Assembly (NCBI GenBank): GCA_000467715.1
Contig: AJFK01000781.1
Coordinates: 62,001 to 126,000 of the forward strand
DNA from: Hysterium pulicare CBS 123377
Lineage: Eukaryota; Ascomycota; Dothideomycetes; Hysteriales; Hysteriaceae
Length of the DNA stretch: 64,000 bases
Reading direction: 5' to 3'
Position numbers and translations under genes: made by a program. The notes under the pieces were generated by a model that was given only the letters and a program-made list of their open reading frames with translations, was not told where the DNA came from and ran no database searches. Positions 12,358 to 64,000 of the stretch are shown here, one piece after another. How positions within the stretch are numbered: position 1 is the stretch's first letter; every line of letters starts with the position of its first letter.

Positions 12358-14977
12358 ATGAGAGATGAAGCGACTTCTACCCCAGAAGCCGATGGCGGTG
12401 TGAATGATTCGCAGCACAATTCGTCCCCACTGCCGACGCTCACCCCGTCGCCAGCAACCTCCAATGTCGCGACGACCGCATCCTCCAAGTCGACACCGTC
12501 GCGTTCCTGGCTCAGCAGTGTTCGAAGACCGAAAACTTCACCAGGGCCAAAAGCTTCACCATTTAAGAGGTCTTTTTTATCAAACGATGACCCCAGGAGG
12601 GACTCGGCCTTAGCCCCTTCATCTTCTACAACCAGCACCGATCATTCCATTGACAACGGATCCGCTCCTTCCAGATTACAAAAGGTGCCTAGCCTCCCCA
12701 CAATCGTTATACAAGATGAGTCGCCTTCGCGTCAATCGAGGTCGAGAGCTCGCGAAACGAGCGGAGAACCAGACCCGCACCCGGACGATTCGGCCGAGGA
12801 ATACAATGATGCATTTCATGGCATAGATACAATTATACCCACCGGAAGTTTTGATGATCTTACCTCGCCAACCAAGCTGGAGTTCTCCAAGAGAGGGAGC
12901 ATGCTACTGGGCGGCAAAAGGGCAAATCTCATGAACAAGCAATTGGGACTGGTCAAGCAGGATGAAGAGTCGTCTGCGAAAACAAAGGACTTACGGGCAC
13001 CGATCGCGTCGCAACCAGAACCACGTTCTCCAACGAGATCAACAGCAACGGGGAGAGTGCCGAGCAGCCGGATATTGTCTGCTGATGAAACGATGCTTTC
13101 CCGAAAAGTTCGCTCGATGTATCAGCATGGAAATGAGAGTGCTGCGGAATGGGGCGGAGTTCAAGAGACTGTCAGAAGCACTCCTGAGGCTACAGCGGTC
13201 GATAACAGCAGTCTTTCGGAAACCCCGGTCAATAGTTCTACGTTGACGGTTGACAAGACTCGCCAAATGGACTCAACTTCGCTAAGGAGTCCAAGTATTG
13301 CAACAAGTCGTCGAGAAAGTCTGATCATCAAAGAGCCCACGGAAGCTGCTGGTGGAGTGGAGGACTGGGCAGATTTGGAAGACGCGGAGGTTGATCGATA
13401 TGGCTTCATTGTACCGAAGAAAGTAGGCTCTCGTGGATCTGTTCTTAATGCTATCGATGGACTCGAGGGACCAGGACTACAGCGTGTATCTACCACTTTG
13501 AAAATCGTGTCCGAAGGACCGCGAAGGAAGCGCTCAATGCGGCGAAGCCCATCGAACTCACGCTCCGCTAAATCAGCGAATCAATCTAGAGAAACGCTCA
13601 GAAGGAAACGGTCACAACGGTCTTTACAGCCGCCTGACTCGACTTATTCCAATATCACTGCAGGTTCTCGCAGTACCGCTCAGAATCCTCTCCGTTATGC
13701 GGCAAATCGAATGCCACACAACAGAGACCGCAGATGGATGGATGAGGCCAGCGATATGCTCACGCTACCCCCAGGTCTTGCGGACATCGCAGAGCAGGAA
13801 GAAGGCGGAAGAGCAGCTCTGGCTATGAAAAAGAAAGAATGGTCTCGTGAAGAAAAATGGCGGAAGATGGCCAAAGTCGTCTCAGCGGGGGCAGACAGCG
13901 GAGGCATGATGTTCGAATTCGACATCAAGGATCCAAAACTCATTTCAAGGACCTGGAAAGGAATACCGGACCGATGGCGCACGACTGCGTGGTATGCTTT
14001 TCTCGCGGCCAGTGCTCAAAGGACGAAATACAGTCCTACGGATGAAGAATTGATCGAAAGCTTTTATGAACTACAAGAGGAGAACTCTGCAGATGATATG
14101 CAAATCGACGTCGATGTGCCTAGGACCATTAATCGGCATATCATGTTTCGGCGAAGATATCGTGGAGGGTACACTTGTTCCCTTCCATAAACAACTTTTC
14201 ATTGACTAACAAACATCAGGCAGCGACTTCTATTTCGAGTATTGCACGCAATGTCTCTTTACCTGCCAGACACGGGCTATGTACAAGGAATGGCTGCTCT
14301 GGCGGCGACCTTGCTTTGTTACTATGAAGAAGACAAGGCTTTCGTCATGCTGGTCAGGCTATGGAAACTTCGGGGCCTGGAGAGGCTTTACGAGTCAGGC
14401 TTTGTTGGTTTGATGGAGGCTCTGGGGGATTTTGAGCAGAACTGGCTGCGTGGCGGCGACATTGCAAAGAAACTGGTAAGCGGATCTTGATTTTTTCCCT
14501 CGCTGTTCTTCTTGAGTTTGTCACAGCCACTCGTTCCCTATCGTGACGCCATGGCTGAAGCAATTCGGACTCTCCGAAACTTTCGCGACTATCACATGTT
14601 CAAGGCTGTGCTAATATCGACCCCAACAGGAGGAGCTGGGCATCACCTCGACAGCCTATGGTACACGGTGGTACCTGACTCTATTCAACTATTCGCTACC
14701 TTTTCCGGCACAACTACGCGTCTGGGACGTATTCATGCTTCTAGGCGACGCCTCCAATTCCAACTCGGCTTCTTCGACCTTTAGTGGTGACCTCGACGTG
14801 CTGCACGCAACATCCGCCGCGCTAATCGATGCAACGAGGGAGATCTTACTGGATTCGGATTTCGAGAATGCAATGAAAGTTTTGACATCCTGGATACCAA
14901 TCAAGGACGAAGATCTACTGATGAAAGTGGCGAAAGCCGAATACAAGATGCGGAAGAAGCGAGCCAATGCTACGTAG
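12358..14977 (+). CDS. TBC-domain Rab GTPase-activating protein
   Basis: Three exons: 12358-14168, 14220-14475 and 14630-14977, 804 aa. The first 450 residues are Ser/Thr/Pro-rich and disordered. An acidic EDWADLEDAEVDRYGFI block (about residues 330-350) precedes the catalytic region. The TBC domain (about 535-775) has both catalytic fingers: IxxDxxR as I583-D586-R589 (IDVDVPR) and YxQ as Y624-Q626 (GYVQG). The end of the domain, TRWYLTLFNYSLPFPAQLRVWDVF, is coded by exon 3. Both catalytic residues are present, so GAP activity on a Rab is expected; which Rab is unknown. Intron 2 (154 bp) contains an out-of-frame open stretch, but skipping it gives the continuous TBC alignment KKL-EELGITSTAYGTRW, so the intron is favoured. 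Confidence 0.9.
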
Positions 14978-18967: not shown

Positions 18968-19870
18968 AGGGCTTTCTCGAACAAGAATGTCGAGATGTGG
19001 TGTTCGTGCTGGTCGCTATGATAGGCGAGCACGGATCGAGTAACGAGTGGCAGCATCAGAGGGCCATGACACTGCCTCTGCGCGGTTGCTCGCTCGATAT
19101 GTTACATGTATTTTAGACACATCAGGCGACTGGCGATGTAATACGCCTAGCTGGCCTCTTCAGGCGTCTGCGGTTCTGCTTGGCCTGCTTGGCCGGCCCA
19201 CCGACGCACGTCAAAAGTAGGTCGGCCGCTTTGCAACGCCACACACCCGTCCAGGGAAACATAGCCAGACTCTGCAGAGCACCCACCGCGACCCTCGGCG
19301 GAGCCTTTCTCCAGGCACGTCAGACCTTGAAGGGCTTGCTGACGGCGGCGACTCCCCAAGGCTCGAATTGCTCCTCATGCACACCCTTGCTCCATTCAAG
19401 CACCTGGCGCCACACCGGCTGGCCCTGGTCCAAACTGGTCGTGTCTACTTCCGCTCCCTCGCTGCCGTCATTGTCAAGTCTTGACGGCTCTGTCTTCCCT
19501 TCTTGTACAATCGTTACAACCTGCTCCGCTTGACCCTTCTTCCCTTCATTCCAGCCTGGCCGCGATCGCCCAAGCCGTCCACGCGAGCCAGCGGCGAGAT
19601 CGTCGGTGGAGCCTGTCGTCTGTAACCAAACCGATTCTCTGTTTAGCCTTACCTGCCTGCGAATCACGGCTCGAAGTTGACGTACCTGGCAAGCATTAAC
19701 CAAACCTTGAAGGCTCCCGTTTGCATGCTTTGGTCCGAAGGTGAACGTTGCTCCAAAGAAGCTTCTCTCTTAAGTACGTCGTCCTTCTCTTTGCGGACGT
19801 TTTGGGAAAAAGACCTCTCCTCCAGTCATTTCAATGTCGAGCTTTCCTACCTTCAATCCTACCACCCTCC

Positions 19871-21493
19871 ATGTTGCTCACGCTCTCCAAACCAGCCAAG
19901 CAAGAATTCGAATTTAAAACTCCTCATGATTACTCTCCGCCGTTTCCTTCTTCCGCGCCCGCACGATATTCACCCAAGGTCAACGGCGGGTCTCTCCACT
20001 CACTGTCGGCTAGTGCCCAAAAAACCATGGGCACGCCTCACAGAGGCCTCCCGCCGCCGGCGGCGATGACGCTGCCAGCTCCTGACCGGGGCCCGCCTCC
20101 AATCTCTCAGCAAATGGGCCAAATGCCTCCCGCTCCTTCGTCCTGGCAAGGTGCCGAAGAGTCCATGAGGAATTGGCTGGTGGCCAAGGCAGAGGAGGAC
20201 AAGAGGAAGCAAGAGGAGGAGAAGACGAGGCAGGAGGGCCTGAGGTTGGAGCAGAGAAAGATTGAGCAGTCGATGCTTCGAGAATCGATGCAAGGTGGTA
20301 TACCACCACACCTTGTGCCGATGATCTTCGCTGGAATTGGCGGTGGGAACCTCGCCAACGTCAGTCTGGAGTGGTTGCAACAATATGTGGCTCAACTACA
20401 AGCCGCACAGCAGCAGCAACAACAACAACAGCAGTCAATAGCTCAACCACAAGTCTCACCAGATCTGCGCAGAGAGACGAGGTTAATCGGCCAGAATCCG
20501 CCAGGCGTGTACGGCATCCAGCCACAGGCACCACAATCCGTTCTGCCGACTTCAGTGCTACCAGGACAGCCTCTAGCGGCGCAACCACAGCATACGGCAT
20601 TCTCAACATCTGCGTACGCGACTGGGAACTTGTCTCCAACGAGCAGAGCAAGAGCTGCGCAAACATCAGGCCATGTTGGTGCCCCTACATCAGCGCCCCG
20701 TCCCCCGGCGCAATCACAGCTACCTAGACTTACCACGAACGAAATGCACATTCAGCAGCCTCCAGCACCTCCTACGAGCGTCCAGCATCTGCAGCAAACG
20801 CAGTCCTCTCAAGAACAGCAGTCATCGTCTCCTTCAATCTATTTTCACCATTGGGTACCACCATCGTCCCAGGGAGGAGGATCTAGCGGGAATCCTCCTG
20901 CAACGCCATCAGGTAAACACCATGCTTTGTCGTTTTCGTCGCATCAACATACAGCCTCTCATGCGTCTGACCCAGATTACACCAGCTCGCCGAAAAAGCG
21001 GAAAGCTCAAGGCGGCCACACCGCAGCACCGCCCCCGACATCGACGCAATACGTCTCACCGTCTTTCTCGCACATGTCGACGTCTTCTGCATCAACGCCG
21101 GCACGACGCGGGCACGCTCGGGCACGTAGCGATGCATCGGCGCGGGCTGAGGGCCTCAGTGGAGGATCTCTAAGTCGGCGCGGGACCGTTTCCAGTCACG
21201 GACCTGCAGAAATGGGCGCTCAACAGCGAGAGGCGTCTGTCAACACGGAGCAACGCTACCACCAGCCACATCGCGGCGGCGAGGGCCAACACGAGTATCA
21301 ACCGCAGTCAAATCCAACGCATCCTTCTTTGCAGCAGCGAAACGATGGCTTTGGGAGCGGGCAACAAGCGCGAGCGGCAACTCCAATGGCGATTCAAGGT
21401 GAAACGCGACAATCTACGCAGCAACTTCATTCGGCTGGTCCGGAGCGAGGGTCTGCGCCAGGATCCCCCAAACGGGAAGCGGGCGGACAGTAG
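19871..21493 (+). CDS. Gln/Pro/Ser-rich nuclear-type protein, function unknown
   Basis: Single exon of about 540 aa from ATG 19871; the open frame extends further upstream without an ATG, so an upstream exon is possible. The N-terminal third looks conserved rather than random. It has YSPPFPSSAP, SLHSLSASAQKTMGTPHRGLPPP, then a charged helix (AEEDKRKQEEEKTRQEGLRLEQRKIEQSMLRESMQ) and GGIPPHLVPMIFAGIGGG. A run of 9-10 Gln follows near residue 180. The rest is disordered, with a basic SPKKRKAQ that could act as a nuclear localisation signal. This composition is typical of fungal transcriptional or chromatin co-regulators, but no DNA-binding domain is visible. Its long upstream gene-free block suggests complex regulation. 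No function is assigned. Confidence 0.72.
   Translation: MLLTLSKPAKQEFEFKTPHDYSPPFPSSAPARYSPKVNGGSLHSLSASAQKTMGTPHRGLPPPAAMTLPAPDRGPPPISQQMGQMPPAPSSWQGAEESMRNWLVAKAEEDKRKQEEEKTRQEGLRLEQRKIEQSMLRESMQGGIPPHLVPMIFAGIGGGNLANVSLEWLQQYVAQLQAAQQQQQQQQQSIAQPQVSPDLRRETRLIGQNPPGVYGIQPQAPQSVLPTSVLPGQPLAAQPQHTAFSTSAYATGNLSPTSRARAAQTSGHVGAPTSAPRPPAQSQLPRLTTNEMHIQQPPAPPTSVQHLQQTQSSQEQQSSSPSIYFHHWVPPSSQGGGSSGNPPATPSGKHHALSFSSHQHTASHASDPDYTSSPKKRKAQGGHTAAPPPTSTQYVSPSFSHMSTSSASTPARRGHARARSDASARAEGLSGGSLSRRGTVSSHGPAEMGAQQREASVNTEQRYHQPHRGGEGQHEYQPQSNPTHPSLQQRNDGFGSGQQARAATPMAIQGETRQSTQQLHSAGPERGSAPGSPKREAGGQ
20408..20434 (+). repeat. CAG/CAA polyglutamine tract
   Basis: Mixed CAG and CAA codons in the Gln-rich gene. 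Codon mixing limits slippage compared with the pure GCA repeat at 18803. Confidence 0.85.
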
Positions 21494-34613: not shown

Positions 34614-34862
34614 GACCTCCCCCTCCTTCATCTTGAAGTTGTACAGACTCAATTCTCATTACCAGATCAAATGATTGTTGATTGTTTATTTGCTTGAGAG
34701 ATTTCTTGGCAGTGACGGTTGACCACGAGCCGGGCTTTCACCGCCCTTGTTCTGCTAGTCGCGTCGCGTCCACATCTGGCGCGTTGGACTTAATTAGTGA
34801 TCTTCAACGCTGCGATTTCACGATACTTGCACAGAAACCACCACAAAGACGACATCAACAAC
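34614..34862. promoter_or_regulatory. Divergent promoter, DUF1917 gene / DNA primase
   Basis: 249 bp. Contains CGCGT cores at 34760-34764, 34765-34769 and 34780-34784, about 80-100 bp upstream of the primase ATG. These resemble MluI-cell-cycle-box cores bound by MBF, which controls S-phase genes in yeasts. Confidence 0.5.
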
Positions 34863-36506
34863 ATGCCTCATTCAGTTTCACCCGAAGCAATGCCTGTCGA
34901 TGACAGCAGTATGCCTCAGACGGACGCTCAACCGCTTGAGCAGCCAAAAGAGGAGCAAGATGCTGAATCTCGTGATGTCGCGATCTCAGATGCACCTACA
35001 CCAGCCGATGCGGAGAAAAACAAAGTCAATCTAGAAGAACTCTTCGATGATGAGGATTCAGACGAAGAATTTCCTTCCAGCGCTCCTCAAATCAATTCCG
35101 ATCCTGCCTCATCACCACCGTCGCAGGAACCAATGTATGAAACCACTTCTAGATATAAGATCGTAAATACTAAGAGCACTCAAAAGCCCAATCAAACCTC
35201 GCTCAGCCTTCTCCGACCCAGAAGTAATGCGAGCTTTCTATCAACGCCTCTTCCCCTTCCGCTACCTCTTCCAATGGCTCAACCATTCCCCCTCACCGAG
35301 CCCCGACTTCGCGCATCGCGAATTCGCATTCACGTTACAGAACGATGCGTATCTACGTTACCAATCCTTTCCAACAGCAGACCTGTAATTTGGCCCTCCG
35401 TCTGTACCTCCCATAACCTCCCTGCTGACACCTTTTGCAGTTTTCGTAAACAGTGTATCCAAATGATCCCCTCCCGTTTCGAAATCGGCCCCGTCTACAG
35501 CACCAACCCACGCGATCGCAAAACCGTTCGCAAAGAGTCCCACTTCCGCCCCATCTCGAAGGAACTAGTCTTCGACATCGACATGACAGATTACGACGAG
35601 ATCCGAACCTGTTGTACAGGCGCCAAAATCTGCCACAGCTGCTGGGCCTTCATAACGATGGCGATAAAAGTCGTCGACGTCGCTTTACGCGAAGACTTCG
35701 GATTCAAACATATACTATGGGTATATTCCGGTCGACGAGGTGCCCACGCCTGGGTCTGCGATAAACGGGCTAGAGACTTAGACGATACGAGAAGGAGGGC
35801 AGCGGCTGATTACCTCGAGCTACTGAAAGGCGGTGATAAAGGCGGGAAGAAGCTCAAAGTTAGACGTCCATTACACCCGCATCTCGACCGCAGTCTTTCC
35901 ATCCTCCGCGAACACTTCCAAACCTCCATCCTGCACGAACAGGACCCCTGGATCACGGAGAAATCCTCTCACCTCCTAGATCTCCTTCCCGATTCCACTC
36001 TCCGCGCCGCGCTGCAGAAAAAATGGGATTCCGCTCCCTCGAGACCCAGTTCAGCGAAATGGGCTGATATCGACAGCGTCGCGAAATCGGGCGCTTTGTC
36101 CTCTTTAACGACTAAAACCCTCCTCGAGGCTAAACAGGATATTGTTCTAGAATACACGTACCCGCGTCTCGACGCCGAAGTCTCGAAGAAACTAAACCAT
36201 TTGCTTAAATCACCATTTTGTGTTCATCCGGGTACGGGGAGGATTTGTGTTCCGATCGATACGCGGAAGGTGGAGGAGTTTGATCCGTTGGATGTACCTA
36301 CGGTTACTGAGTTGTTGGGAGAGATTGATGAGTGGACTCGGGAGAACGGGAAGGAGGAGGAAGGGAAGAAGATTCCTGATTGGGAGAAGACTAGGTTGAA
36401 GCCGTATGTGGATTTCTTTAGGAATTTTGTTGGCGGATTGTTGAAGGAAGAGAAGGGAGGCGTGAAGAGGGAGAGGGAAGAGGGGGGTGAGGCGATGGAG
36501 TTTTAA
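34863..36506 (+). CDS. PRI1: DNA primase small (catalytic) subunit
   Basis: Three exons: 34863-35134, 35187-35384 and 35441-36506, 511 aa. Splicing is needed. The family block FYQRLFPFRYLFQWLNH..FAHREFAFTLQNDAYLRYQSF lies in a different frame from its neighbours and joins them through introns of 52 bp (GTATGA..ACTAAG..AAAAG) and 56 bp (GTAATT..TTGCAG). Catalytic motif VFDIDMTDYDE (paired Asp), zinc ligands CCTGAKICHSC, and SGRRGAHAWVCD for nucleotide binding are all present. An acidic, disordered N-terminal extension of about 90 residues precedes the domain. The protein makes RNA primers with the large subunit and Pol alpha. It could be mistaken for a one-exon gene because the unspliced frame stays open through both introns. 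Confidence 0.94.
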   Translation: MPHSVSPEAMPVDDSSMPQTDAQPLEQPKEEQDAESRDVAISDAPTPADAEKNKVNLEELFDDEDSDEEFPSSAPQINSDPASSPPSQEPMYETTSRYKIVNTKSTQKPNQTSLSLLRPRSNASFLSTPLPLPLPLPMAQPFPLTEPRLRASRIRIHVTERCVSTLPILSNSRPVIWPSVCTSHNLPADTFCSFRKQCIQMIPSRFEIGPVYSTNPRDRKTVRKESHFRPISKELVFDIDMTDYDEIRTCCTGAKICHSCWAFITMAIKVVDVALREDFGFKHILWVYSGRRGAHAWVCDKRARDLDDTRRRAAADYLELLKGGDKGGKKLKVRRPLHPHLDRSLSILREHFQTSILHEQDPWITEKSSHLLDLLPDSTLRAALQKKWDSAPSRPSSAKWADIDSVAKSGALSSLTTKTLLEAKQDIVLEYTYPRLDAEVSKKLNHLLKSPFCVHPGTGRICVPIDTRKVEEFDPLDVPTVTELLGEIDEWTRENGKEEEGKKIPDWEKTRLKPYVDFFRNFVGGLLKEEKGGVKREREEGGEAMEF

Positions 36507-41414: not shown

Positions 41415-44400
41415 TTATTCAAGCTTTAGATTATCTTCATTAAGAACTCCATAGAGCTGCTCGATTTCTTGACCCACAATGGTTATATCTTGCGCCAATT
41501 GTCCAGTCACAAGAGCTATTGAACCAACCTAATTAGCAAGCTCAGAAGCCTTAACAATAGATGAACTTACCGAATGCATAAAGTAGTTCGTAGTCCTCAT
41601 CTGTAGGCACAATGCTTCCTACACCAGTCTTCCGAAATTCAAAGATCTTCGCCAACAATCGATCACGAGTATGCTCGATCTTTGGTAGAACGTCGTTCAA
41701 AGGATATTGTAACTTCATTGAGGATGCCAAGACTGCGGCAGTGGGTAAGCTTTCGAAATGCTTAGGTTAGTTGCATAACATACCGGAGAACAAATGGCTG
41801 ATACGCCAGCTCAACTGCATCCATTCAGGCTTCGTAAATTTCAGGATTTCTTTCTCGCCCTCGCTCGCCTTCAAGTCCTTCAATATGACCACATTCATTG
41901 CATGGAAACTGTCGAGCATCCTGCTTGTGGCTTCGAGTATTTGTCTGAATGCTTTGTCCGGGAACGGCCCCTGTAATTCAAACTCGGACGTCGCCGATTT
42001 TCGAAGCGAATCCAGGTGGGTTAGGAATCGTTGCAGCTCTAGCTCCTCCTTGGGATCCATGTACGATCTGAAGGGGCGGGTGCCTTCTAATAGTGAATGC
42101 AGCGGACCACGTTTCCAAACCAACCCCATCCTCAGCCATAAGACGCATATGCCATCCTTCACTTTTCGTCGTGCTGATATGGGCCATATCATCCTAGTCA
42201 CGATGATACCCCAAATGCAGCCTGTCATGACAGCAACCACTCTATGGAGTACGATTTCCCAAATCTCTGGCGAAATGCCACCTTCGTCATCATCATCGTC
42301 ATCGTCTTTAATCGAAAGGGAGTAGGCATAGAGACACGATAAGTTATATGTCAAAAAGATGAACCTACCCATCGGCCCTTTGCCTTTGCCTACTATAATA
42401 TAGAAGCAGCCAAGAGATATTAACCAGCCAAAGAAGCACAGCACGTAAGGGTTGGCATCGGATATAATCCAAGCGATAGCGGCGCAAACGGCTCCTATGC
42501 AGGTACCAACAAATCGTTGATATCCAGTGGTATTGGATGCGCCAATCGTCTATGCGTGTTTGTTAGCTAGATCACAGGGAATTCTCTGAGATACGTACCA
42601 TAGAGCACACTAACATATAAGAAAGCAAACCCCATTCTTGCCTCCAATGACTATAAAGGGGTCGAGTGGCTGGGATGAACGCCCACATCGCATAAATGAC
42701 AGCCCCAACGCCGACTTTGAATGCATATTTGATGTCTTCCCTTCTTAAAAACCCAAGGGCACGCCACATACGATAGGTAAATGTCGGCTTATCTGAGGGA
42801 ACTTTCTGACCACAGGTAGAATCACGTTGTCGCAGGGACCGATTGTCTCGGGGCAGTACTTGTTCCTCGGTCTCTTCAGAGAAGCCTTTTGATGGTCAGT
42901 AGACGGTCACAGTTGTGGGAACCTTATGCTTACCAAAGTTGGTGTTGGGGTTTCTCTGCTCCCAATTACGCCAGAAGATCAGCCATTGCCAGCTCCTTGC
43001 GCTATTGTTATGATTTTCTTTCAGTTCCTCTAAGATATCCAGATAAGTTATCATGTCTTCTGCAAAGTCTTGCAAAGAAGAGCTAAAATAACCACAGCTG
43101 GCTGCCACCTCTTCGAAATCCGCAGCTACTTCCACAGAGTGTTCTCTCGAAGAAATCTTGCTTTTGTACACAAGAGCGAGCGCTTGTTTCCTCGCACTGG
43201 TGTACATTTCATTGGCCTCGAGTAGACTGCTCCGGAAGCGACCGTGGAAAGTGATGAGATATTCTGGTCCTGGCCCAAATGGCAGTTCATCAAGAACTTC
43301 TCGAAGAGTGTAAGCGAGCGATTTCTGTGCTGCTCAGCATTTATCCACCACTATTGCCATATATGCTTACCATTGGAGGCCCTAAGTGAGCGATGAAAAG
43401 TGAAAACATGTCAATAGAAGTCAGAGAAGATTGCACTGTACTTGGAAGATTCCAGGAAGCCGAGTTCTTGTCGTGATCGTCGCTCGATTCAGCCGAGTCT
43501 TCAGGAGCTTCGTCGATAGAAGCCAGAATGCTGCCCCTTCGTTCTAATTGACTGAGGCTTGGGGATAGAACTGGAGAGAAATTGTGATCTGATAAATCGA
43601 ATGAGCTGGTCATACTCAATGGGTAACCATTTTGTCCAACTCCGCTCTCAGATTCTGACATCAGGGAGAATTGGGTTTCGGCTGAGCTTCGTAAACCACC
43701 AATATTCTGTGTCAGTTGCTCCATGCATTTGACTAGTCGCATTTCGATATCGTATTCTGCTTCGGTGCCCATAATGTAGTGTTCATATTTGGCTTCTCCT
43801 AGATTTTTGATCAGGGTCGTAAGAAGAGCCTTACTCTGCTTGGATGCAGAAATATATGATGAACTCTTTAGCTCTTGCTGTGACCCCGAGAGGAAGCTGT
43901 GAGTAATCATTGTGAGCATTTCTCCCAAAGAATCAGAGGCTTTCCTTAGATTATCTCGAAGCTCTTTTCGCGCAGATACCGGTCTTATCAGCATGCTGAC
44001 CGCCGTCGTTGCGATGATTCCCATGATTATCATTCTAAGTACTTGGCTTATTTTGTCGTAGGAGAATTGCGCAGCTTGCACGGCCCCTTCCCGGGTTAAG
44101 ACTGTAATCAGGGCGAGAGAGGTCAACGAACAAGCGACATTGACCAGTGGATTTCCCAATTTCTGCTTCAGCCATCCAACAAATCCCAGTCCACCTCCAA
44201 CAAAGACTATGAGAACCAATGCATGCCCGACGGCAAGTAGATCGTGTTTGTCAAAAATTACCGAAATAGCCATACTCGCGAAGGAGACGACGGCAGCATA
44301 AACGAAAGCAATAAGGGCCAGAACAGTAGCTTCGGCCATGCTTCCGGCAGAGCGTGCTGGGTGGAAATAAACAGTGACAGTAGCTACCATATGCTTTCCA

Positions 44401-44820
44401 TCATTCTTTCCAAGTAGGCCGGCGATCGGAGGAGCAAAGGTAGCCAAACTACCTAAAACATAGGCTATCGAGCATTTGAGTATACTCTGCCCTGTTTTTG
44501 ATGTGGCAAAGGAGTATGCCTTTCTCAACGCATCCTTAGACAAGTCTACGAAGCCTCCCAAGTGTCCATTGTTCGAAAAGGAAGAGGCCGGCTGGCGGAG
44601 GAGAGGGGATTGCTCGTCTGCAGATCCGTTCAGGTTTGGTGGAGGTCTTCGTAAGGTGAAACTCTTTTTAACTCGTTCTCCCGTCCTTGGAAGAATAAGT
44701 GTTGCTTCTCGCACCTGGGAGTTGTGAGCTTCGGAAAACAAGTGGGATCAAGGGACGGTTGGTACTCACATTGCGCCGTAGAAAACGGCGAGCCGCCGGA
44801 ATCTGAGAAGACTCGCTCAT
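41415..44820 (-). CDS. FUSC/ArAE-type membrane transporter (Bre4-like, two modules)
   Basis: Seven exons: 44820-44770, 44714-43371, 43324-42934, 42885-42599, 42549-41784, 41732-41571 and 41515-41415, 1033 aa. Introns are 46-55 bp and phases all agree. The N-terminal half (residues about 70-260) has a six-helix membrane block of the 'putative ER transporter 6TM' type: YVLGSLATFAPPIAGLLG, ATVLALIAFVYAAVVSF, VGHALVLIVFVGGGLGF and others. A long cytosolic, Ser-rich linker follows. A second FUSC-like membrane block lies at about 650-780 (VGVGAVIYAMWAFIPATRPLYSHW, SNTTGYQRFVGTCIGA, VVAVMTGCIWGIIVTRM). An acidic loop (IKDDDDDDDEGG) interrupts the second block. The final exon, VTGQLAQDITIVGQEIEQLYGVLNED, matches the usual C-terminal helix. 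Substrate unknown; ER/vacuole location is by analogy with yeast Bre4. Confidence 0.88.
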
Positions 44821-45887: not shown

Positions 45888-46418
45888 TGGGCACAAATAT
45901 GACATGGACGAAAGGTCAGTGTAATTATTTCCCACTGGGGCTGAGGATATGAGTTATGGGGATGGAGTTTGGGACCCGTAAATCTACTTTTCATCGCCCG
46001 TGGGATCATAGAGGTGTGGCCTCGCACTCAGAGTGATGTTTGAAGACTTGCGAATTTATCAGCATAAGATGTGTGAAGGATAGACTCACTATGGGTGTTG
46101 GGAGGAGGGTTTATTTGCATAGCAATTCACGACTTCTTCGCATGATACTGTAAGTCTACCCTCCTTCCCATTAGCGTAAGATAATTATAGAAGTACTGAA
46201 ATCTGACATAAACTCTGATCTCATTAGTGGTATATTTCGCAACAAATGCACGCCAAACGTGTCTTAGCTTGAGATGCTAACCACGGATGAGAATGGGAAA
46301 CTCTCTAGAAGGAACTCACTTCAAAACGTTCTATAAATCAGTGCCTACGTCAACCATCACCTCTTGAAGCTTGTCTGTTAATGTGACAATCGAGAACTCA
46401 AATTCTCTATTCAAAACG
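45888..46418. other. Intergenic
   Basis: 531 bp between two plus-strand genes; probably 3' UTR plus promoter. Nothing else is recognised. Confidence 0.4.
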
Positions 46419-47618
46419 ATGTCTCCTTACTATCTTCCTGACTGCAGCGCTATGAATACTTCCAATTCAGCCCGCTTACCGAGAACACGGATTAAGACTA
46501 CGCCCTCTTCAAGTGACTCTGCGAACGCCTCTGCGAACGCCAATGCCTTTGAGGAAGCAGATGAAGCTCACGACTTAGAAGGGCATCGAACAGATTATCC
46601 AAGGACTAGCAGACATTCAAGATTTCGCCCCTCTTTGGTTTCCCCAAGATCGGAGGGTGCTATTGGTTCACAGTCTCTGTACCGCGCCGGCAACTCCACG
46701 CAACCTCTCAGGATCTCCCGAAATAGATTTATTCACAATATGCCTCCGACCCAACTAGAGTTGCTCCAGTACCTGACCCTACCCTACTCCAACCCCGAAA
46801 CCGTGCACGAAAGCTGGGCCAGGCGAAAATCGCGCCGTTCTCCCCGCGCCCGAGTACATCTCCGCCTAACAGCATACCCCACGAACGACATGCTCTGCCA
46901 TCACTGCCTACAACAACATGATGCTTGCGTGATAGAAGAGGTTCTGACACACATCAGCGACTGTCGATTCGTCTCCATCGTGGTTCTAGATGCTCGACAC
47001 GGATGCGCCGAGCCCTCCTACCCGGAACTCCACATTCTAGGGCATATGTCCCGTGATCCCATCTTCCGCTCAAATTCTCCGTCTTACATGCGGCACGTCC
47101 TACCCATGCGCCGTGCAACCTGGGATCCAGATGAGCAAAGAGCCTACACAATCATCAGATATGAGTTGAATACTATACTCCAGAGCGGCAACAGCAACTT
47201 ATGCAACTTATGGGAGCATCGGCAAGAGGAGACTCGCACTAGTATCTCCTGCCGTATCGATAGTCTCTATGAGCGATACGAACCACGCCACATGGAAGCG
47301 ATCCCCCAACCCTACTTCCACATCTCGATCTACTCAGGACACTTCAGACCCATCCCGAAGCCATCGACACGGCGACCGAGACCCTCTACGCCATCACCAG
47401 CTCATTGGGTTCTGACCGATCTGCGATCGTGGGAGGGGAGGAGGCAGTTAGCCAGGAATACAGCGAACATGCTAGGGAATGTGGCGCAGAGTGTTGGAAG
47501 GTTCTCGGGCAGACTGTTGCATTTCGTCTGGCAGGACATAACGCAAGAGGGGTATAATTGGAGGAGGGATCCGTTTTTCTACGGTGCAGATCCAGATCGG
47601 AGGGTGCCCTTCTTTTAG
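46419..47618 (+). CDS. Hypothetical protein, likely lineage-restricted
   Basis: Single exon of 399 aa from ATG 46419 (the frame is open upstream only with a TTG). The first 110 residues are Ser/Asn/Arg-rich, with a short NASANANAF repeat. A more ordered part (about 115-300) contains LQYLTLPY, WARRKSRRSPRARVHLRLTAYPTNDMLCHHC, and DARHG. CHHCLQQHDAC gives a C-x2-C-x5-C cluster that could bind a metal. No signal peptide or membrane segment. I do not recognise a family. Codon usage and uninterrupted length support a real gene, but expression evidence is needed. Confidence 0.6.
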   Translation: MSPYYLPDCSAMNTSNSARLPRTRIKTTPSSSDSANASANANAFEEADEAHDLEGHRTDYPRTSRHSRFRPSLVSPRSEGAIGSQSLYRAGNSTQPLRISRNRFIHNMPPTQLELLQYLTLPYSNPETVHESWARRKSRRSPRARVHLRLTAYPTNDMLCHHCLQQHDACVIEEVLTHISDCRFVSIVVLDARHGCAEPSYPELHILGHMSRDPIFRSNSPSYMRHVLPMRRATWDPDEQRAYTIIRYELNTILQSGNSNLCNLWEHRQEETRTSISCRIDSLYERYEPRHMEAIPQPYFHISIYSGHFRPIPKPSTRRPRPSTPSPAHWVLTDLRSWEGRRQLARNTANMLGNVAQSVGRFSGRLLHFVWQDITQEGYNWRRDPFFYGADPDRRVPFF

Positions 47619-51866: not shown

Positions 51867-54844
51867 CTAGGGATAGGTGCTTCTGTTGGCGGCAATGGCC
51901 TGCGACATGATCCTAGCGAAACGGCCAGGCATATCCTGGTCTTGCTTGGCTGTCTCGAGACCCGTCAATATTTGCTTGATGCCAACCCCTACCTCTGTGC
52001 TTTCAGAGATCTCCTGTCCTTCGCTGATGGCCCTCTGCACATCCCGATCTGAGAGACCCGAGTGACGCAAGACGTGCGCCAGCTCTTCCTGAGTGTTGAC
52101 GTTAGGTACTGCTATTTCGGCACCGTTGAAGCGAGAAAACAGATTGAGCTGGGTTAGTACGCTCCTTTCAGAAGTTGTGGCAAAGATCAGAAGACGCCGG
52201 TCCTGCAATGATCAGCTTGTCTGCATGCACATTTGAGATCCGAGAGATCATTACCTTGGGAGGTTGTTTCGCCAACAAAATCTTGAGCGCGCCCACAACT
52301 CCTTTATCGAAACGAGGTCCTATCGGCACCCATTCGACGAGATCCTCGATACTGTCTATGACAATCACACTGAGTGGACTCTTGTAAGCGTCGCGGAAAG
52401 TTTTGTCCAGCTGTTGTACCTGTGTCATTGTGTTAGAATGCTACATTTTACTTCTTTTCGAATCATACTTGCCTTCTGCATCTCGCTAAACCCGATCATA
52501 TCCTCCGCCGAGATCAGTTTGATGAATGGAAACTCTGAATCCATTGCCATCTTTGCGGCGAGCGCCGTTTTACCGCTACCTGGAGGTCCGTGCAATGCCA
52601 CGGCCAATAGTGGCGACGACTCCGGCATTCTTACTTGATTTATGTAACGTCGGCCATCTTCAAGTATATCGTTGATGAAACCAGAGAAGTGAATAATACC
52701 TCCCCGGATGCGTTTCCCGAGTTCTTCCTCGGCAACACCAAAGAGCGGTTTTACTTCGTCCAGTGCATTCATGAAGTCTTGCCGGTTGACCTTCATGTTG
52801 ACCACATCATCATTGATCGCTGCCATTGTACCCACTTTGATGTGCCGGCTAAATGCGAAAGACGAAGCTGCCTTGACAAGTCCATTTATCTCAGCGCCCG
52901 AAAAGTTCTTCGTTAGTCTTGCAAGCTCTTCAAGGTTGACATCGCCGGCCATTACGTTATTGTCTCGCATTTTCATTGTGTGAATCTTCAATATCTGTGC
53001 TCGTCCATGTTCACTAGATGGACAATTAGCATTATGAATGGTTGTGGTGGAGGGAGTAAACCTACTCTGGGAGGGATATCTCCATATGGACCTCCAAACG
53101 ACCAGCTCTGAGGAGAGCCTCATCAATCATATCCATACGATTGGTCATGCCGATGAGTAGGATGTTGTTCAACTGATCCACACCATCTAGTTTTGAAAGG
53201 AGCTGGTTGACCACACTGTCACCGACGCCCGTCCCGCCACCACTAGTGCCTCTCTGTTTACAGACAGCATCCAGCTCATCGAAAATAATGATGTGAAGGC
53301 CGCTCTCGTCCCCCTTCTCCTTGTACTCTTTCTCGGCATCTGCGAATAACTTTCGAATATTTTCTTCTGATTGACCCACGTATTTATTAAGGACCTCGGG
53401 TCCATTTATGACTTTTGGCTCCCGAGCATTCAGCATCTTGCCAATTTGGCGAGCAATCAATGTCTTTCCAGTTCCAGGGGGTCCGTAGAGAAGTATACCC
53501 CTGACATGCTGAATGCCAAGTCGGTCAACGAGTCCAGGGGGGAAAATTCGAGACGCAAAGGCTCTCCTAAATATGGCACTGAACTCGTTATCTAGACCGC
53601 CAATGCCCCTGGTTATCGTTAGTCTATTATACTCTGAAAAAATTCAATACTCATTGTGGCTGAATTAGGGGTTATGAACATGAATTCATTTCCTCCAGAT
53701 TCCCAATCAGGTAGAAGCGTGAGGCGACAAGGTCGAATGCTCTCACTGTGGGAAAAGCCATTTGATGCTCCTCCCCGAGCACAATCCAGCTCGGTAGAAA
53801 ATGGAGACCTTGATATGGAACTAAGTACTCACATGTCCTCAAACTTGAAACCCGGCTGTACTATAGAGTTAGCAGCCGGTCTTCTATTTGATGCTTTCAA
53901 TTTAATATCTGTACGAGCATCTTTGAAGAAGTCGATTTGACTGTGCCTAGTTAAGATACCGCGGGCATTGCGATCCGTGACCGGGGCGGAGGATGACGAC
54001 CCCGATTTTTCCGAAAGATCAACAAGCTGGACTGTCCGTATTGACGTCCTAAGGTAAATGTTCTTGATATCCATCAAAAGTTGTTGACCAGGCGCAAGGA
54101 TCTGGTTTTCGAAATTCTGGAAGTAACATAGATCAGAACCTTGAACGGGAAGAACATACGGGAATCAGGTACCTTGATGAATGCATTTGCGAGCTCGTCT
54201 TGATCATATGGAGTATCAGTCACCTTCTTGCTGGCAAATCCAACCTCTACCTCGATAGAACCCAGATAGGACTGCCCTCCTTGACTGAATGCATCGTATG
54301 GCTCCACCTGGACAATATCTTGAGGGCCTAGCGATATTCCCGCCCAGGTTCTCTGTGCATCTGTGAGACCAATCTCCCCCGGCCGGCAGCCCTCAGTAGG
54401 CCGTGCAGAGAGAACGAAACCGCCATTGAGCAAAATGTAGATGTCGGAGCCATCACGGGAAGGAGGAAAATCTAGCGGAGATACGGCAACGCTGGCGCAA
54501 GTCAGTATTATGGAGTTTCTCATAGGCTTTCGAATCACTCACAGGTTGCCAAAAGCATATGCATTGCCACCGGGGCTCTTTATGGGCCTCAGCTGCATAG
54601 CAGGTCCCCGATTACCTCCACCCATGTTTCCTTGTGGTGGCGGTCCTCTTGTGGGCATACGCTGAGCAGATGAGTTACCGTAGCCTGGAGGTGGTTGCTC
54701 GTATCCGCCAGACATCTGTGTATCGTAGCCACTTTGTCTTGGGGGTGGTTGTTGACTCGGATTACGATTTGGAGGTCTCGGAGAGCCATCTGGCCGTGCG
54801 CCAAATGGGTTCGGCATATTAGGAAGACGGTCTCGGTTAAACAT
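51867..54844 (-). CDS. SEC18: Vesicular-fusion ATPase Sec18/NSF
   Basis: Seven exons: 54844-54543, 54491-54173, 54116-53833, 53608-53066, 53013-52473, 52419-52255 and 52202-51867, 829 aa. The N domain begins after a Pro/Gly-rich leader with [16 protein letters not shown]. The D1 AAA ring has Walker A GPPGTGKT and Walker [11 protein letters not shown], plus [17 protein letters not shown]. The D2 ring has GPPGSGKT and [10 protein letters not shown]. It disassembles SNARE complexes throughout the secretory pathway. Intron 5 (52420-52472) has a GC donor, AAG|GCAAGT; the join [13 protein letters not shown] is exact. Intron 3 is 224 bp, while the others are 51-56 bp. Confidence 0.96.
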
Positions 54845-55505: not shown

Positions 55506-56598
55506 CTAGAAGCCTTTGCCCAGCCGAACAGATTCTCCTCCACCGTACCACAACGTCCCCATTCGGCAATTCAGGCCCTTTTCTTGCCCAACTATCCACT
55601 CGCCTCCATCTTCAATCTTTCCGTCATTAAGATCTGGCCAGAACTCATTTTCTAGCCAGTCATTGATTTCTTCGATTTTGTCGACTAATATTTTCAGTTT
55701 TTCTGGGTCAGGGTCGCCATTATCACCTAAGAAATCTTTAGCGTTGATGAAACGGCCCACGGTTAAATGGCTTGAAGGGACAACATAGCGAGAGTCGACC
55801 TGCACACCCGTATCCCGGCTCAAAGCGTACAAGTCACGCCGGAGATGATGATAACTATATTGGTCATCTTGCACCGTTCGGCCCGCACTGAGGCCTTCTC
55901 CACTTGCGGGGACAAAGCTCAAAGCCAGGGCAGTTGCGTCGAATCCAAGCATTGGCTTGATAAGCCGTGCTCGATGGTGGAAGGTGTAATCCGTGATCAA
56001 TGGAATTTTGTCTTGCATGGTATTGACAAGGTTTTCAATCTCCTCAGCCGTTCGAGAGTGTGTAATTTCTAGCGCTGTCATATGCAAGCATTCTTGCGGC
56101 ATGAGCCAGAGATCTGGTCATTTCGTAGCATCAATCAGTCATCCATCCATCGAATGATGTATTGCATGTATTCAGAAAACTTACTCGGAGCAACAGCAAG
56201 CAGCTTTTGCTGAACTTGACGTATCAAATCCTTTACTTTTTGTGAGGGTCTTGCCCAGAAGACCAGGCAATGACGTGGATCGCTGAAGCCGGGTTCGACT
56301 GTGGGATCCGATAATCGCAGTAGAATTGGGTCTATGCTGACTCCAGCAAACTGTGAGTCGAGCATTTTGGATTTTTGCTGAGCATTACGTGTCGTTCGGT
56401 GGGTGTTATATCGGTCTTGTATATGTTTCTCATGAGAACTTAGTCTTGGAAGTCTGTTTCAGCTTATGAACATACAGGATCATCGTTTGACATAACGATT
56501 AGAGCATCGTAAGGGTTATCGAAGTCGGCATAAGGTACTCCGCTGAGATCCTCGAACGTGTTGCTTATATGGACTGGAAGCGGTGTATTTGTTGACAT
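55506..56598 (-). CDS. 2H-superfamily phosphoesterase-like protein
   Basis: Three exons: 56598-56476, 56428-56185 and 56113-55506, 324 aa. The two His-x-Thr motifs that define the 2H fold are present: HMTALEI at about residue 130 and HLTVGRF at about residue 222. Flanking features are QDRYNTHRTTRNAQQKSKML, DPRHCLVFWARP, APNLWLMPQECLHMTALEITHSRT and a C-terminal GLNCRMGTLWYGGGE. This matches a fungal family annotated as RNA ligase/cyclic-nucleotide phosphodiesterase-like. With both HxT motifs intact it could hydrolyse 2',3'-cyclic phosphates, but the substrate is unknown. No targeting signal. Confidence 0.8.
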
Positions 56599-57444: not shown

Positions 57445-60400
57445 ATGGATATCATAGCTCGAATGGTATCGAATGCAATGGGACGGAAACGTCCCATTGT
57501 TCAGGTTGCGTCTGAAGATGACGAGCCTGCTCTGGAATCTATCGATTCCGGAACTACATCGCGTCCGCCTCTGGCACTTGTACACGATACAGCGGCGCGA
57601 ACCAATCAATCTCCTCCCAACAAGAAAAGACGGGTCGAGAGACGTGGGCTGAAATGTGTCGAGAGTATGATCCTTCTCAATGATCTAGCAAGGGTATTGT
57701 TGCTACATTAGGGCATATGCTTACTAACAAGTTCTAGTCCCATACAAACCGCAAATTCCGAAAAGCGAAGTAAACGTTAATTATGTCGATTTGACAAATA
57801 CGATCCCAGCCAACACTACGAGACGAAGAATACCCTCATCTACACTAAACCAGAATGTTCATCAAGCTATGGCCGGACATATGCCAACTTGGAAGAGGAT
57901 TGGCCTGGAATTGAAGGACTCCGAAGAGGGAAGTCGTGATTCATTGCGTGGTTCAAGACCTCGGTGGAGCCAGCGGTTCCACACCTCTGCAAGATATAGC
58001 TCAGGGCGGGGCGAAGACTTACCTGGGTATATCCAAAGAGGAGAAATCAACGAGACCCGCGATGAAAGTCAACCAGACGCCGGAAGAAATGTGTCTCACA
58101 AGGAATCTTCGTCCCCTCCACGAAGAAGCAGCGAGGACACTTTCGCGATTTTTAACCCGGATACCCACGAGATACCAGTGCATAAAGCTTGTACACGACC
58201 TCAACGACGCGCCCACAGAGTGTCGTACATCGAAACTCGACTGAGTGACATGGCAGAAGTTTCGAGTGATGAATTAGCAGAGGTTGGTAGTAACTGCTCC
58301 GAATCGGACTTTGAAGCAACCAATTCAGATCATCTTGAAGACGACCAAGAGCTCAGTGACTTTGAGGAAAATCTTGATCTTTCGGAAACATCCGACTTAC
58401 CTGATCTGGATGACATTGATATCCAAGAATACGACGAGTTTTCCGATCTTGCAGAAGAGGCCCAGCCAAAGAAAAAAGATGCCAAGAAGACGGCTTTGGC
58501 AGTCCCGAGGACGAGTTCGAAGAAAGACAGGACCATCGACGAAAGCCTCCCTCCACTGTCAAACATCGAAGACATCTTCCTCGATATTACTGCCAAAGCA
58601 CTTGACTTGGGGTTTGAACATATGATTAGAAATCGGAAAGGGCGCCAGATCAATGTAGCTACGATGTGCTCGGGTACTGAAGCGCCACTGCTATCGCTAC
58701 AATTGGTCTCACAAGGTAACATGAATTTTTCGCGTCTACAAGTTGATTGAAAGGCTGACACGTTCGCTAGCACTTGTGAAACTAGGGAAAGATCCTATCA
58801 ATATCAATCATCGTTTTAGTGCTGAGATTGAGGCTTTCAAGCAAGCATATATTGAGAGAAACTTTGACGTCAAAGTCATCTTTAGAGATATTCGCGAGTT
58901 CCTGGAAGAGGAAACGAAGAGTTCTGGAGCGTAAGTTTTCGTTGTTTAGTCGTAGTGCGCTGCTAATATCGGATTCTGCAGCACCACTGTGTATGGCGCC
59001 AAGGTTCCAGTGCCTGGCAATCTTGATCTTTTGGTTGCGGGGTTTTCCTGTGTGGACAGATCGAATTTGAATAATCACAAAAAACAGGTAGATGAAGAAG
59101 GGGAAACTAGCGATACCTTCGACTCCATAAAGTCATATGCTGACATCTGGCGACCCTCCATAATCATCCTTGAAAACGTCAAAGGCGAGAAAGGTGATTG
59201 GAAAGATTATTGTGAAAAATATAACGCTATCGGATACGAAGCCACCTGGATGTGGTGCGACACTAAGAACTATTACCTCCCACAGACAAGGGTAAGAGGA
59301 TATATGATCTGCATTGAGAAGAGCCACTACGGAACGAAAGTGAATCTTGCCATGGAGAAGTGGCAGAAGGTCATGGTGGATCTCCGACGGCAATGTAGCA
59401 GTCCATATGGAGCATTCCTCCCGGAGGACACTCCCAATCATCACGTTAATCTGAACACGCGAAACCATCAGGTGTCCTGGGATGCTTGCAGAGGGAGACA
59501 TGAGAAGTACCGATCGGAACTCAAACTGGGAAACAAAAGGCCGATGACCTTGTGGTCCGAGAGCGGACTGTGCAAACCTCCCGATTATGCGAACAAGCAT
59601 TTCATAAAGAAGACATCAGAGCGAGTGAAAGACTTCCTGGACATTGCTTTGTTGCGTAACGCTCTTCCGTTTATGGGAGAATTTGATTCTCAATATTCAA
59701 TGTATGTTTCTCTATCCCCGGTTTTGCTATCGCACTAATTAAATGTAGGCGGATCTGGAATTCCTCACAGAATATCGACCGCGAAACAGATACAATCCCG
59801 TTCGGCCTTTCTCCTTGTATCACCCCGACCGGCATTCCATACATGACTGACAGAGGAGGACCATGTAGTGGTTCCGATCTCCTCATCCTTCAAGGTCTTC
59901 CTATTGATAAGATATCATTTACAAGAGAGAGTCAGAAAGATCTGCAAAATCTAGCTGGTAATGCTATGTCTACTACCGTTGTTGGTTGTGCTATTCTTGC
60001 AGCACTGCTATCTGGGCAACAAGCAATTCTCAATCACGAAGCAGGAATATCCGAGACGGACGTATCAAGCGAATTGTCTTCACACGAGGTTTCACTAATC
60101 GAACAACACGAATCGAAAGAACGAACATTGTCCTCGTTGAATAAGCAAAAACTGAATCTGGAAAAGTTTCTGCAAGATGCAAACAAGAGTTCGCGACAGT
60201 GTTATTGCGAAGGCCAGCGAGAAATTTCGAGAAACCCTATACAGGAATGCAGAGACTGCAAGCATACTACCTGTCTCAGATGCGGAGGAAATCCTCTCCA
60301 CCACTACGACAGCCCTCGTGTTTTCAAGGAAGACCGTCTATCACCTCAAGAGTTTGAGACATATTATAGATCACTACTACCATCGATACTTAATTTCCGC

Positions 60401-63400
60401 TCTTTCCCAGATCTAAACCAGCTTACTGGCAGAAATGCCACAGGTGAACCAATTGACCTTTGGGAAGATTTCCGAGCGAGAGTAGCTAACGCTACTGTCG
60501 GGAACCTCTGTATCGACCGATTTGAGAGATCAGAAGTCTGGAAAATCATCTACGAATCTTCATCGGCTAGCTTGGTGCTTCAGATGAGCGATCGACCCCA
60601 ATGGCTACTCTATGCTAAGTCGCCTGCGTCTTTACCAGGCGATAGCCCCTTACGCAAATTACTAGAACGACCAGTTGCGCGCGCATACCTCGAAGACTCG
60701 TTTCTCGAGAGTTCATGGGAAGTGTTTCTCCCTAGTCCGAAGCGATTCCAAGTCAGAATTTTGGGTTCGCAAGAAAGAGTCAGCTCGTGGCGAGCTCGCA
60801 TCGGCCTTGTAGACTTTAAAGAGGAGACACAGTCGCGAAGCCTTTCCATGGAGGTTGCACCCAAGGATAAGATGTGTCTACTCGCTGACATTTCTGGATC
60901 CTACACGCTCCTGCCGAACTGTGCAACTGCTAAGCAGAGCCTTTACCAAAAGATCGGCGAACAAAAGGCCCGAAATGAGCGAGATTCTCTATATTTGTTC
61001 TTAGACCAAGAGCTGCTCGGTGATAGTACCAAAAGTCGTTTCATTTTCAGCAAGAACCACCGTCGATTGCGATACGGAGAAAATCGGGATGTGCTCGCCA
61101 GTTTGGATGCATCGTGGCAGCCGTGGAATAGTAATGACGAGGGTGTAGCTGAAGCCACTGTTGACGGATCTTGGGTACCTCTCCGTGATACGTCTACTAA
61201 GCTTGTCGCCGACGATGCAACTATTCTCATACGCACACCATCAAGAGCGCCAGACATAACGCTCTCTGGCGATGAGTGCTCATCAGCAGTTACCGTTCTC
61301 GAATGCGAATTTAACTCTCATACCAATGTCGACAAGTTTTGGCATTCGGGACAGCAGGTTGGGCCGGAGAATAGACTGTTCTTCTCATCGTTCTCATGGG
61401 CTCTCGAACCTGGGAGACAGTTACCCTTGCTAAATCAGTGGCAAGTTATGAGGTATGATCTGGATACTCAATGCCAAATATGCGGCCCCAAGCCCCCTCG
61501 TATCATTTGGAACGTCGTCGAGAAAGCGCACAAAGCGTCAGCAACTGCATATGAAGACAGCAAAGAAGCAGTAGCCTTTGAAAGGGCGCTGAAAAACCGA
61601 CCGCGAATATTCATTTTACGTGCTACTGTTAATCCAAATGATGCGAGTCCGAACACTAGGGTGCAGATTGGCATAAACTTTGCATCTCTCGCTCAACGTG
61701 CTCTTGCTAGATTGAGTAAGGCTAGTAAGCCTAACTCGGTGTCCTTCAGGCTTCTAACAGACCACATGGAACCCGCTCGCGAGCCTTTTGAGAAATTCAA
61801 GCTTAAAAGCAATTCAGAAGATAAGCCATACGGCGGACCCTTGAAAATGGCATACGAATTGGGTGATGAGCAGAAACGTTCTTTGTCTTGGATGCGCAGC
61901 CAGGAAGCAGCAAACGCACGCCCATTTATTCATTTTGAGGTCGAGGAGGCGATTCTTCCTAAAATGGGTTGGCGAGCAGAGGCACGCGCCGAGTCTCACG
62001 TTACGATCAAAGGCGGAGTTCTCGCGGACCTTCCATCCTTTGGAAAGACTGTGACAACAATCGCTCTGGTGCAGGCGGAGTATGAAGAGAAGAGCTCGGA
62101 CATGATCATTCGCGAAATTCGGCTTTCTGAGTCGTATCGACCTGGCTTGATCGACATCGCTGCTACTCTTGTGATATGTCCTTTACATATCACCAGGCAA
62201 TGGCTGGACGAATTCGGGAAGTTCCTTGGGGAAGAGTGCTACAATGAATCGAATATTTTGCTCATCGATAATCCCAGCGCTTTGCAAAAACTAAAGATAC
62301 AAGACTTCATCGACGCCCGGATTATAATTGTCTCATGGAGAATACTGTTACATGATATGTATATCTCTCAGTTGGCTCATTTTGTGGCTATGCCCGAACC
62401 TGCCGAACGAAAAGGTCGTGCTTTTGATGCCTGGTTGGAATATGCTGTCGATCTTGTACCTGAGCAAATCCAAGAACTGAAATGCTGGGGACCTGCAAGC
62501 TTCGAGCAAAGCATCCCTGGCAAAGTCCAGACTCGCCTCAACCAGCCCGATTTTCAAGCAGTAGTCCCGCTTAAAAGATATCGGGGAAAGGAGTACGCAG
62601 CCAAAAAAAGCCAAAAGACGACAACTAAAGGCAAAGCGGGCAGCAAACTGGCAAAGGGGTCGACCAGCCATCCAAATAATGAATCGTCGGATGCCGAAGT
62701 AGAAGACTGGACGTCTTACGGGATGCCTTTGATTCAGTTGTTTCGATACAATCGAATGGTTGTCGATGAATACACATATCTATATCAGAAAGATAAAGAT
62801 AATTATGCGGCCTATGCATCGATCAAGAACCTACAAGCTCACAAGAAGTGGGTACTATCGGGCACTCCAGCTTTAGCCGATTTTTCTGATGTGAACCAAA
62901 TTGCATCATTTTTAGGCATATCTTTAGGCGCTGACTCCTTGGCTGGTGGAATGTTCACCCCGGAAAACCAGAAAAGAATATACTCCGACCAGACCGAGAC
63001 CGAAAAGTTCCTATCCTACAGCGAAAAGAGGTCCTACCAATGGCACGAAGCAAGGCACCGTCTCGCTCAACGATGGCTAGACCAATTCGCTCGTCAGAAC
63101 GTCCCCGTATTGACGGACATTGAGTGTCGCGAGATAATGCAACCCATTAAACTCGGCCCAGCTCATCAAGCGGTCTACCTTGAGCAATCGCAGCACCTGA
63201 ACTCGCAAGACATGCTGTTGAAGAAGCCCCAGTCTGAATCCGATCGCGCTAATCGCATGAAGATAAGCTTAGCAGGCGCCTCCACCCCGGAAGATGCTTT
63301 GATAAGATGCTCATTATCATTCAACAGAAAAGAGGGCGAATCAGAATTTGAGAATCTCCTATCAACCCGTCGAAAACATGTCGTGGAAGTGCGTTCGCAG

Positions 63401-64000
63401 TTGCTAGGCATGGCAATCGAAGCAGAGAGTCTCAGTCAACAAAGCCACAAACCTGACGGTTACTACAGCACCTATAGAAACGATGTGGCATCCAAGAACT
63501 ACGTTCAAGATTTCGAGACAAGCTCAATGCTTAGGCATATCATCAGTCAAGCTAGACAGAAAGCGGCAGAGAAAAAGCCTGGCAAACCTCTCCAAGAAAA
63601 GGCCAGAGGTAAAAAGCTCAAAGACCTTCAAGTGGAAATGGGTACCTTATCTCGAGAACTAGAGTTACGTGATCAATCGCTCAGATTTTTTGAAGCGGTC
63701 GAACGCGTGTACAATTCCTCATCTTCTGGTTCTTCGGATTCCGACTCAAACTTTTGTAGCTCTTCTTCATGTGAAGGAGAGCCTACGAACGGTTCAAGGC
63801 TTTTCCTCTCACAGCGTTGCGGTCATTTTGTCTGCCAGGAGTGCTTGAATGATACTGTAGACGACGGAACGTGTGTGCACCCTCATTGCAAGATTGGCGC
63901 ACAGCCCTACGATCTTCTGCCGGTTGACAAACTCGGGAAGAAAGATGAGTCATCCAGGGAAAGCAGCCATGGACAAAAGCTCGATGCAATGATTGATCTC
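57445..64000 (+). CDS. DNMT5-type DNA methyltransferase with SNF2 ATPase and RING (3' end missing)
   Basis: Exons 57445-57664, 57738-58715, 58771-58930, 58982-59701 and 59749 to the window end: 2110 codons, still open. Residues 1-370 are acidic, disordered and show no obvious chromodomain. The C5-cytosine methyltransferase (about 375-780) has motif I VATMCSGTEAP, motif IV GFSCVDRS with catalytic Cys476, motif VI ENV (E517), motif VIII QTRVR (Q554) and motif X GNAM (G763). A six-Cys cluster follows (60200-60283). The Rad5-like SNF2 domain has GGVLADLPSFGKT (K1459), a DEYT box (D1699, usual DEAH) and VLSGTPAL. An inserted RING-type set (63755-63889) comes just before the cut. This order is that of DNMT5, an ATP-dependent maintenance methylase for hemimethylated CG in Cryptococcus. 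The helicase C-terminal lobe should lie beyond 64000. Confidence 0.92.

Follow-up and report, generated by a model that had tools for sequence, protein, structure and literature searches.

Does the gene at the 3′ end of the 64,000-nucleotide stretch of DNA analysed here (the window) encode a DNMT5-type maintenance methyltransferase, and what would its presence say about CG methylation in the host? The original prediction had read, in one open frame, a C5-cytosine methyltransferase fused to a Rad5-like SNF2 ATPase with an inserted RING, and had taken the gene as a sign of CG methylation in this genome. Judging from the sequence, we consider it very probable that the gene is a fungal DNMT5 orthologue, probably of a filamentous ascomycete, and that it specifies an ATP-dependent CG maintenance methyltransferase. 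As such, it is a further member of the known DNMT5 family and a routine find.

Gene structure

Sequence and homology together gave a gene model on the + strand that runs from an ATG at 57445 to the window end, with at least five exons separated by four short introns. Exon 1 (57445–57664) starts in the context ACG ATG G, downstream of an in-frame stop at 57382, and encodes a basic, NLS-like stretch (KKRRVERR). It is followed by intron 1 (57665–57737, 73 nt, with a CTAAC branch-point-like site) and by exon 2 (57738–58715), which carries an acidic N-terminal region and methyltransferase motif I. Intron 2 (58716–58770, 55 nt) leads to exon 3 (58771–58930), which continues the methyltransferase domain (EIEAFKQAYIERNF), and intron 3 (58931–58981, 51 nt) to exon 4 (58982–59701), with motifs IV, VI and VIII. 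After intron 4 (59702–59748, 47 nt), exon 5 (59749–64000, cut by the window end) supplies the remaining methyltransferase domain, a linker, SNF2 lobe 1 and the RING; all of these exons and introns lie on the + strand.

All four introns are GT-AG and contain a branch-point-like site; left unspliced, each would add between one and three in-frame stops (three in the case of intron 3). Once they are removed, the product is a stop-free run of 2,110 codons (6,330 nt), again cut by the window end, and by its codon phases the coding sequence occupies all three forward reading frames. The single open frame first proposed therefore has to be given up, since four introns must go and three frames are used; the earlier reading was a good gene call with the wrong gene structure. 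The longest stop-free run in 57445–64000 is 1,438 amino acids, whereas 200 first-order resamples averaged 149 and never exceeded 252; together with a homology match at E = 3.2e-252, this indicates that the region is coding and that the run did not arise by chance. It is plausible that the few, short introns reflect a filamentous ascomycete host.

Family assignment

We compared the spliced protein with 177,635 distinct PDB sequences. One chain, 7r76_A, stood apart: it matched collinearly at 843 bits (the E value given above), with residues 261–2110 aligned to positions 189–2130 of its 2,348, and among the 14 distinct sequences with E values up to 0.1 the remaining 13 reached at most 18.7 bits. 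We take 7r76_A to be DNMT5 of Cryptococcus neoformans, and the entries 7r76, 7r77, 7r78 and 7t02 to be structures of that enzyme. The methyltransferase domain alone gave the same picture, with 339 bits to 7r76_A (184 of 426 aligned residues identical; 43%, a value that MAFFT reproduced). In the SNF2 region, two stretches that cover part of the alignment had 130 of 367 and 72 of 182 residues identical to 7r76_A. Shared with 7r76_A are the collinear methyltransferase domain, cysteine-rich linker, SNF2 lobe 1 and RING, along with the SCVD and DE[F/Y]T motifs described below. These matches bear out the DNMT5 identity that had been proposed. The placement follows from a score gap rather than a tree, with one DNMT5 sequence for comparison and no RID among the hits.

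An enzyme of the DNMT1, DIM-2 or RID families would share the common C5-methyltransferase fold. In the methyltransferase-domain search, however, 32 distinct sequences matched at E up to 10, and the 31 besides 7r76_A (DNMT1s, 9baq, 9bap and M.HhaI) did not exceed 19.5 bits. The best value was 19.5 bits for DIM-2-like chains and 18.7 bits for DNMT1 chains, over alignments of about 65–120 residues. The records of 9baq and 9bap say just DNA cytosine-5-methyltransferase; we assume that both are DIM-2. DIM-2 and DNMT1 also differ from the window gene in motif IV and presumably lack a SNF2 domain, whereas the window gene combines an SCVD motif IV with SNF2 and RING regions downstream. Membership in one of these three families is scarcely credible.

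The SNF2 half raises another alternative, a DNA repair translocase of the Rad5/Rad8 type with an incidental methyltransferase-like domain. An SNF2 ATPase with an inserted RING is the Rad5 layout, the record of 7r76_A is itself titled 'DNA repair protein Rad8', and the search returned a weak match to Rad5 (6l8n_A). We take 6l8n to be Kluyveromyces lactis Rad5, which presumably has the inserted RING and no methyltransferase domain. The window gene has a full methyltransferase domain, and its SNF2 lobe 1, searched alone, matched 7r76_A at 141 bits and Rad5 at just 21.6 bits, although an SNF2 ATPase is common to both. As for the name, PMC7862722, in its treatment of fungal methyltransferases, concludes that those labelled 'Rad8' are likely DNMT5. 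Taken together, these points leave a repair translocase highly unlikely.

A DNMT5 orthologue would not be out of place in an ascomycete. The family had been described as patchily kept in ascomycetes, which is a fair summary of the passages we drew on: DNMT5 is present in 88 of 94 Aspergilli (PMC9676040) and lost in most Sordariomycetes (PMC12543289), the latter source also stating that DNMT5 loci are mostly conserved across fungi. According to Kramer et al. (PMC8091789), Dim2, Rid and Dnmt5 form the commonest DNMT set in ascomycetes. A 2026 review disagrees with these papers in its table, which places DNMT5 in Basidiomycota and some Mucoromycota only, while its text mentions Verticillium dahliae (PMC13297926).

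Searches for relatives in viral and prokaryotic contigs have no bearing on ascomycetes. With the exon 5 frame as the query, these contigs yielded 0 and 11 pattern stretches, and with a two-row methyltransferase alignment 52 and 43; tblastn confirmed none in either search.

Catalytic motifs and accessory domains

The C5-cytosine methyltransferase motifs I, IV, VI, VIII and X, all of which had been called recognisable, were each located between 58655 and 59980 on the + strand. Motif I (58655–58681, VATMCSGTE) lies in exon 2, motifs IV (59040–59066, GFSCVDRSN), VI (59160–59180, ENV) and VIII (59274–59300) in exon 4, and motif X (59951–59980, LAGNAMSTTV) in exon 5. By homology, Cys476 in motif IV is the catalytic cysteine; it is conserved together with the ENV, TRxR and NAM motifs. 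The spliced protein matched the Pfam family DNA_methylase at 60.2 bits (cut-off 22), and an NCBIfam scan matched only the dcm superfamily model, at 55.6 bits and under its cut-off of 100.65.

Two motifs had been singled out as deviations. Motif IV does read SCVD and does depart from generic C5-methyltransferases, but the same SCVD is found in 7r76_A (GFSCVDRSNLNN in the window gene versus GTSCVDYSNLNN), where the next residue is Tyr rather than the Arg of the window gene. According to PMC9998398, motif IV of DNMT5 has a serine where other DNMTs have a phenylalanine that binds SAM, and the change is linked to an autoinhibited state that hemimethylated DNA and the ATPase relieve. Likewise, SNF2 motif II, or Walker B (62753–62782, + strand), reads RMVVDEYTYL, and its DEYT departs from DEAH helicases as claimed, yet 7r76_A has RVIADEFTYL, a Tyr/Phe difference. 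With counterparts of both in 7r76_A, we rejected SCVD and DEYT as oddities that need an explanation. Both SCVD and DE[Y/F]T occur in the solved enzyme, for which activity is described in the literature, and neither is a sign of damage; knowing this is useful for annotation.

The proposed SNF2 lobe-1 region is indeed present in the same polypeptide as the methyltransferase, with a SNF2-rel_dom Pfam match of 66 bits (cut-off 24.9) in the spliced protein in addition to the lobe-1 match to 7r76_A. The Lys-Thr of Walker A, the Asp-Glu of motif II and the SGT of motif III (62849–62872, + strand, WVLSGTPA) are all conserved. Walker A itself, SNF2 motif I (62012–62050, + strand), reads GGVLADLPSFGKT; here the first Gly of GxGKT is replaced by Ser. 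This ADLPSFGKT variant was missed by the original prediction; 7r76_A (GGVIADQVGYGKT, with GYGKT against the PSFGKT of the window gene) and Rad5 6l8n_A (GGILADEMGLGKT) both retain the first Gly. Ser at this position is tolerated by some SF2 helicases, and we therefore expect the ATPase with PSFGKT to be active.

A cysteine-rich, zinc-finger-like cluster follows the methyltransferase domain (60200–60283, + strand) and aligns with the same cluster of 7r76_A; its match to the Pfam family IBR is weak (19.4 bits, cut-off 24.3). The RING-like zinc finger (63755–63889, + strand) is inserted past SNF2 lobe 1. Its cysteine cluster is collinear with 7r76_A, in agreement with the inserted RING that had been proposed, and it aligns weakly with RNF4 RINGs; taken by itself, however, it stayed below threshold with Pfam RING models (best 17.9 bits, cut-off 27.9). 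The alignment to 7r76_A stops with the window end, at chain position 2130 of 2348, and from this we infer that a HELICc lobe follows the RING 3′ of the window.

At the N terminus, the window gene and C. neoformans DNMT5 appear to part ways. The latter has an N-terminal chromodomain, whereas residues 1–337 of the window protein, scanned for a chromodomain, matched no Pfam family up to E 10, in a search whose filters remove most matches above about E 0.1. These 337 residues contain an acidic tract (35% Asp + Glu at residues 235–320) and a KKRR basic cluster. We considered the sequence PIVQV (residues 17–21) as an HP1- or SUMO-type motif in place of the chromodomain and rejected it, the pattern PxVx[LVI] being present in 339 of 2,000 shuffles of the N-terminal 345 residues. 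Kramer et al. describe V. dahliae Dnmt5 (VDAG_JR2_Chr1g14260) as having a DNMT5 domain layout and, relative to the C. neoformans protein, as likewise missing the chromo-shadow domain (PMC8091789). On the strength of that description, a Cryptococcus-type N-terminal chromodomain is not family-defining, and the window adds one more fungal DNMT5 gene without a detected chromodomain.

Expected role in CG methylation

What is described for the C. neoformans enzyme offers a model for the window protein. There, hemimethylated CpG turns on the SNF2 ATPase; the catalytic centre is rearranged when ATP binds, allowing full base flipping and methylation, and unmethylated DNA is expelled (as outlined in PMC13297926 and PMC7862722). 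By analogy, the methyltransferase domain of the window protein would bind hemimethylated CpG, and this binding would stimulate the SNF2 ATPase; an ATP-driven rearrangement would then open the active site, Cys476 of the SCVD motif would attack the target cytosine, and unmethylated DNA would be rejected. Activity, CG specificity and ATP coupling are all inferences that we draw from this analogy. If no chromodomain is present, targeting could not rely on one and would probably be indirect or weak, and the share of genomic methylation may therefore be small, as in Verticillium.

A reason for caution comes from V. dahliae JR2, in which nearly all methylation was attributed to Dim2 and not to Dnmt5: Dim2 deletion gave 100 CG and 61 CHG hypomethylated windows, compared with 3 CG and 15 CHG for Dnmt5 deletion, and the authors suggest that Dnmt5 serves other processes or is a remnant (PMC8091789). 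Because removing Dnmt5 there cost hardly any methylation, an active role in the present fungus is uncertain. On this pattern, the gene could be an expressed DNMT5 orthologue whose folded product adds little 5mC or none; it would then serve some other DNA-associated process or persist as an ancestral remnant. This reading disputes function alone and leaves the family placement untouched. The JR2 deletion counts, the N-terminal region in which Pfam found no chromodomain and the altered Walker A are all in its favour. It has to accommodate the retention of the catalytic cysteine and the core motifs, with the frame intact over 6,330 nt. It must also be set against JR2 itself, where, in a few bins, methylation fell slightly further in the double mutant of Dim2 and Dnmt5 than in the Dim2 mutant, and the same authors allow a low, redundant Dnmt5 activity (PMC8091789).

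Results from other ascomycete strains and species also speak against such an orthologue. Strain V592 of V. dahliae is the opposite of JR2: without Dnmt5 its 5mC fell slightly and its share of mCG visibly, whereas Dim2 loss had little effect (PMC10638132). Low CG methylation remains in dim2-null Zymoseptoria and is presumptively ascribed to Dnmt5 (PMC8016269). High CG methylation is recorded for Tuber melanosporum and Pseudogymnoascus destructans, which have DNMT1 or DNMT5 beside RID and Dim-2 (PMC7862722). Weighing both sides, we regard an orthologue with little or no 5mC output as possible and as the less favoured reading. A narrower version, in which chromodomain loss and the PSFGKT form of Walker A together altered ATP-driven proofreading in an ascomycete DNMT5 lineage, leaving the enzyme in a DNA-associated role other than mainly CG maintenance, seems to us improbable.

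The preferred reading, a DNMT5 orthologue that would act in CG maintenance, does not by itself carry over to the genome. The original prediction of CG methylation from the presence of the gene draws support from PMC7862722, PMC8016269 and PMC10638132, but it is too strong in view of PMC8091789 and PMC9676040. The latter source names A. flavus as having very little methylation, although DNMT5 is kept by most Aspergilli; its authors nonetheless expect DNMT5 to maintain methylation in Aspergilli. The contribution of DNMT5 to ascomycete methylation is still debated, as the accounts in PMC8091789, PMC8016269 and PMC10638132 illustrate, and the window gene alone settles no open question. We also considered base composition as a proxy for methylation, one that bears on this genic stretch only. 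The CpG observed/expected ratio was 0.93 in the window and 1.00 in the gene. In this genic window there was no sign of RIP, the RIP composite index being negative in all 127 one-kb stretches (highest value −0.13).

Otherwise, the window carries ordinary eukaryotic genes. Across it, a tRNA scan found no tRNA and an Rfam scan no RNA family. Several open frames had no Pfam match with an E value of 0.001 or lower: a 198-amino-acid frame upstream of the DNMT5 gene (55506–56102, − strand) and the long frames at 12358–14190 (+), 19748–21493 (+), 43341–44741 (−) and 46371–47618 (+). These last four may be fungal exons or may have arisen by chance in coding DNA of low complexity. Pieces of an apparent Sec18/NSF-type AAA ATPase gene lie at 52425–54844 on the − strand, with AAA and AAA_lid_3 at 52425–53126 and a CDC48_N match under its cut-off at 54074–54538. 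An ordinary DNA primase small subunit gene occupies 34797–36506 on the + strand (Pfam, 183.7 bits; best PDB match, 312 bits).
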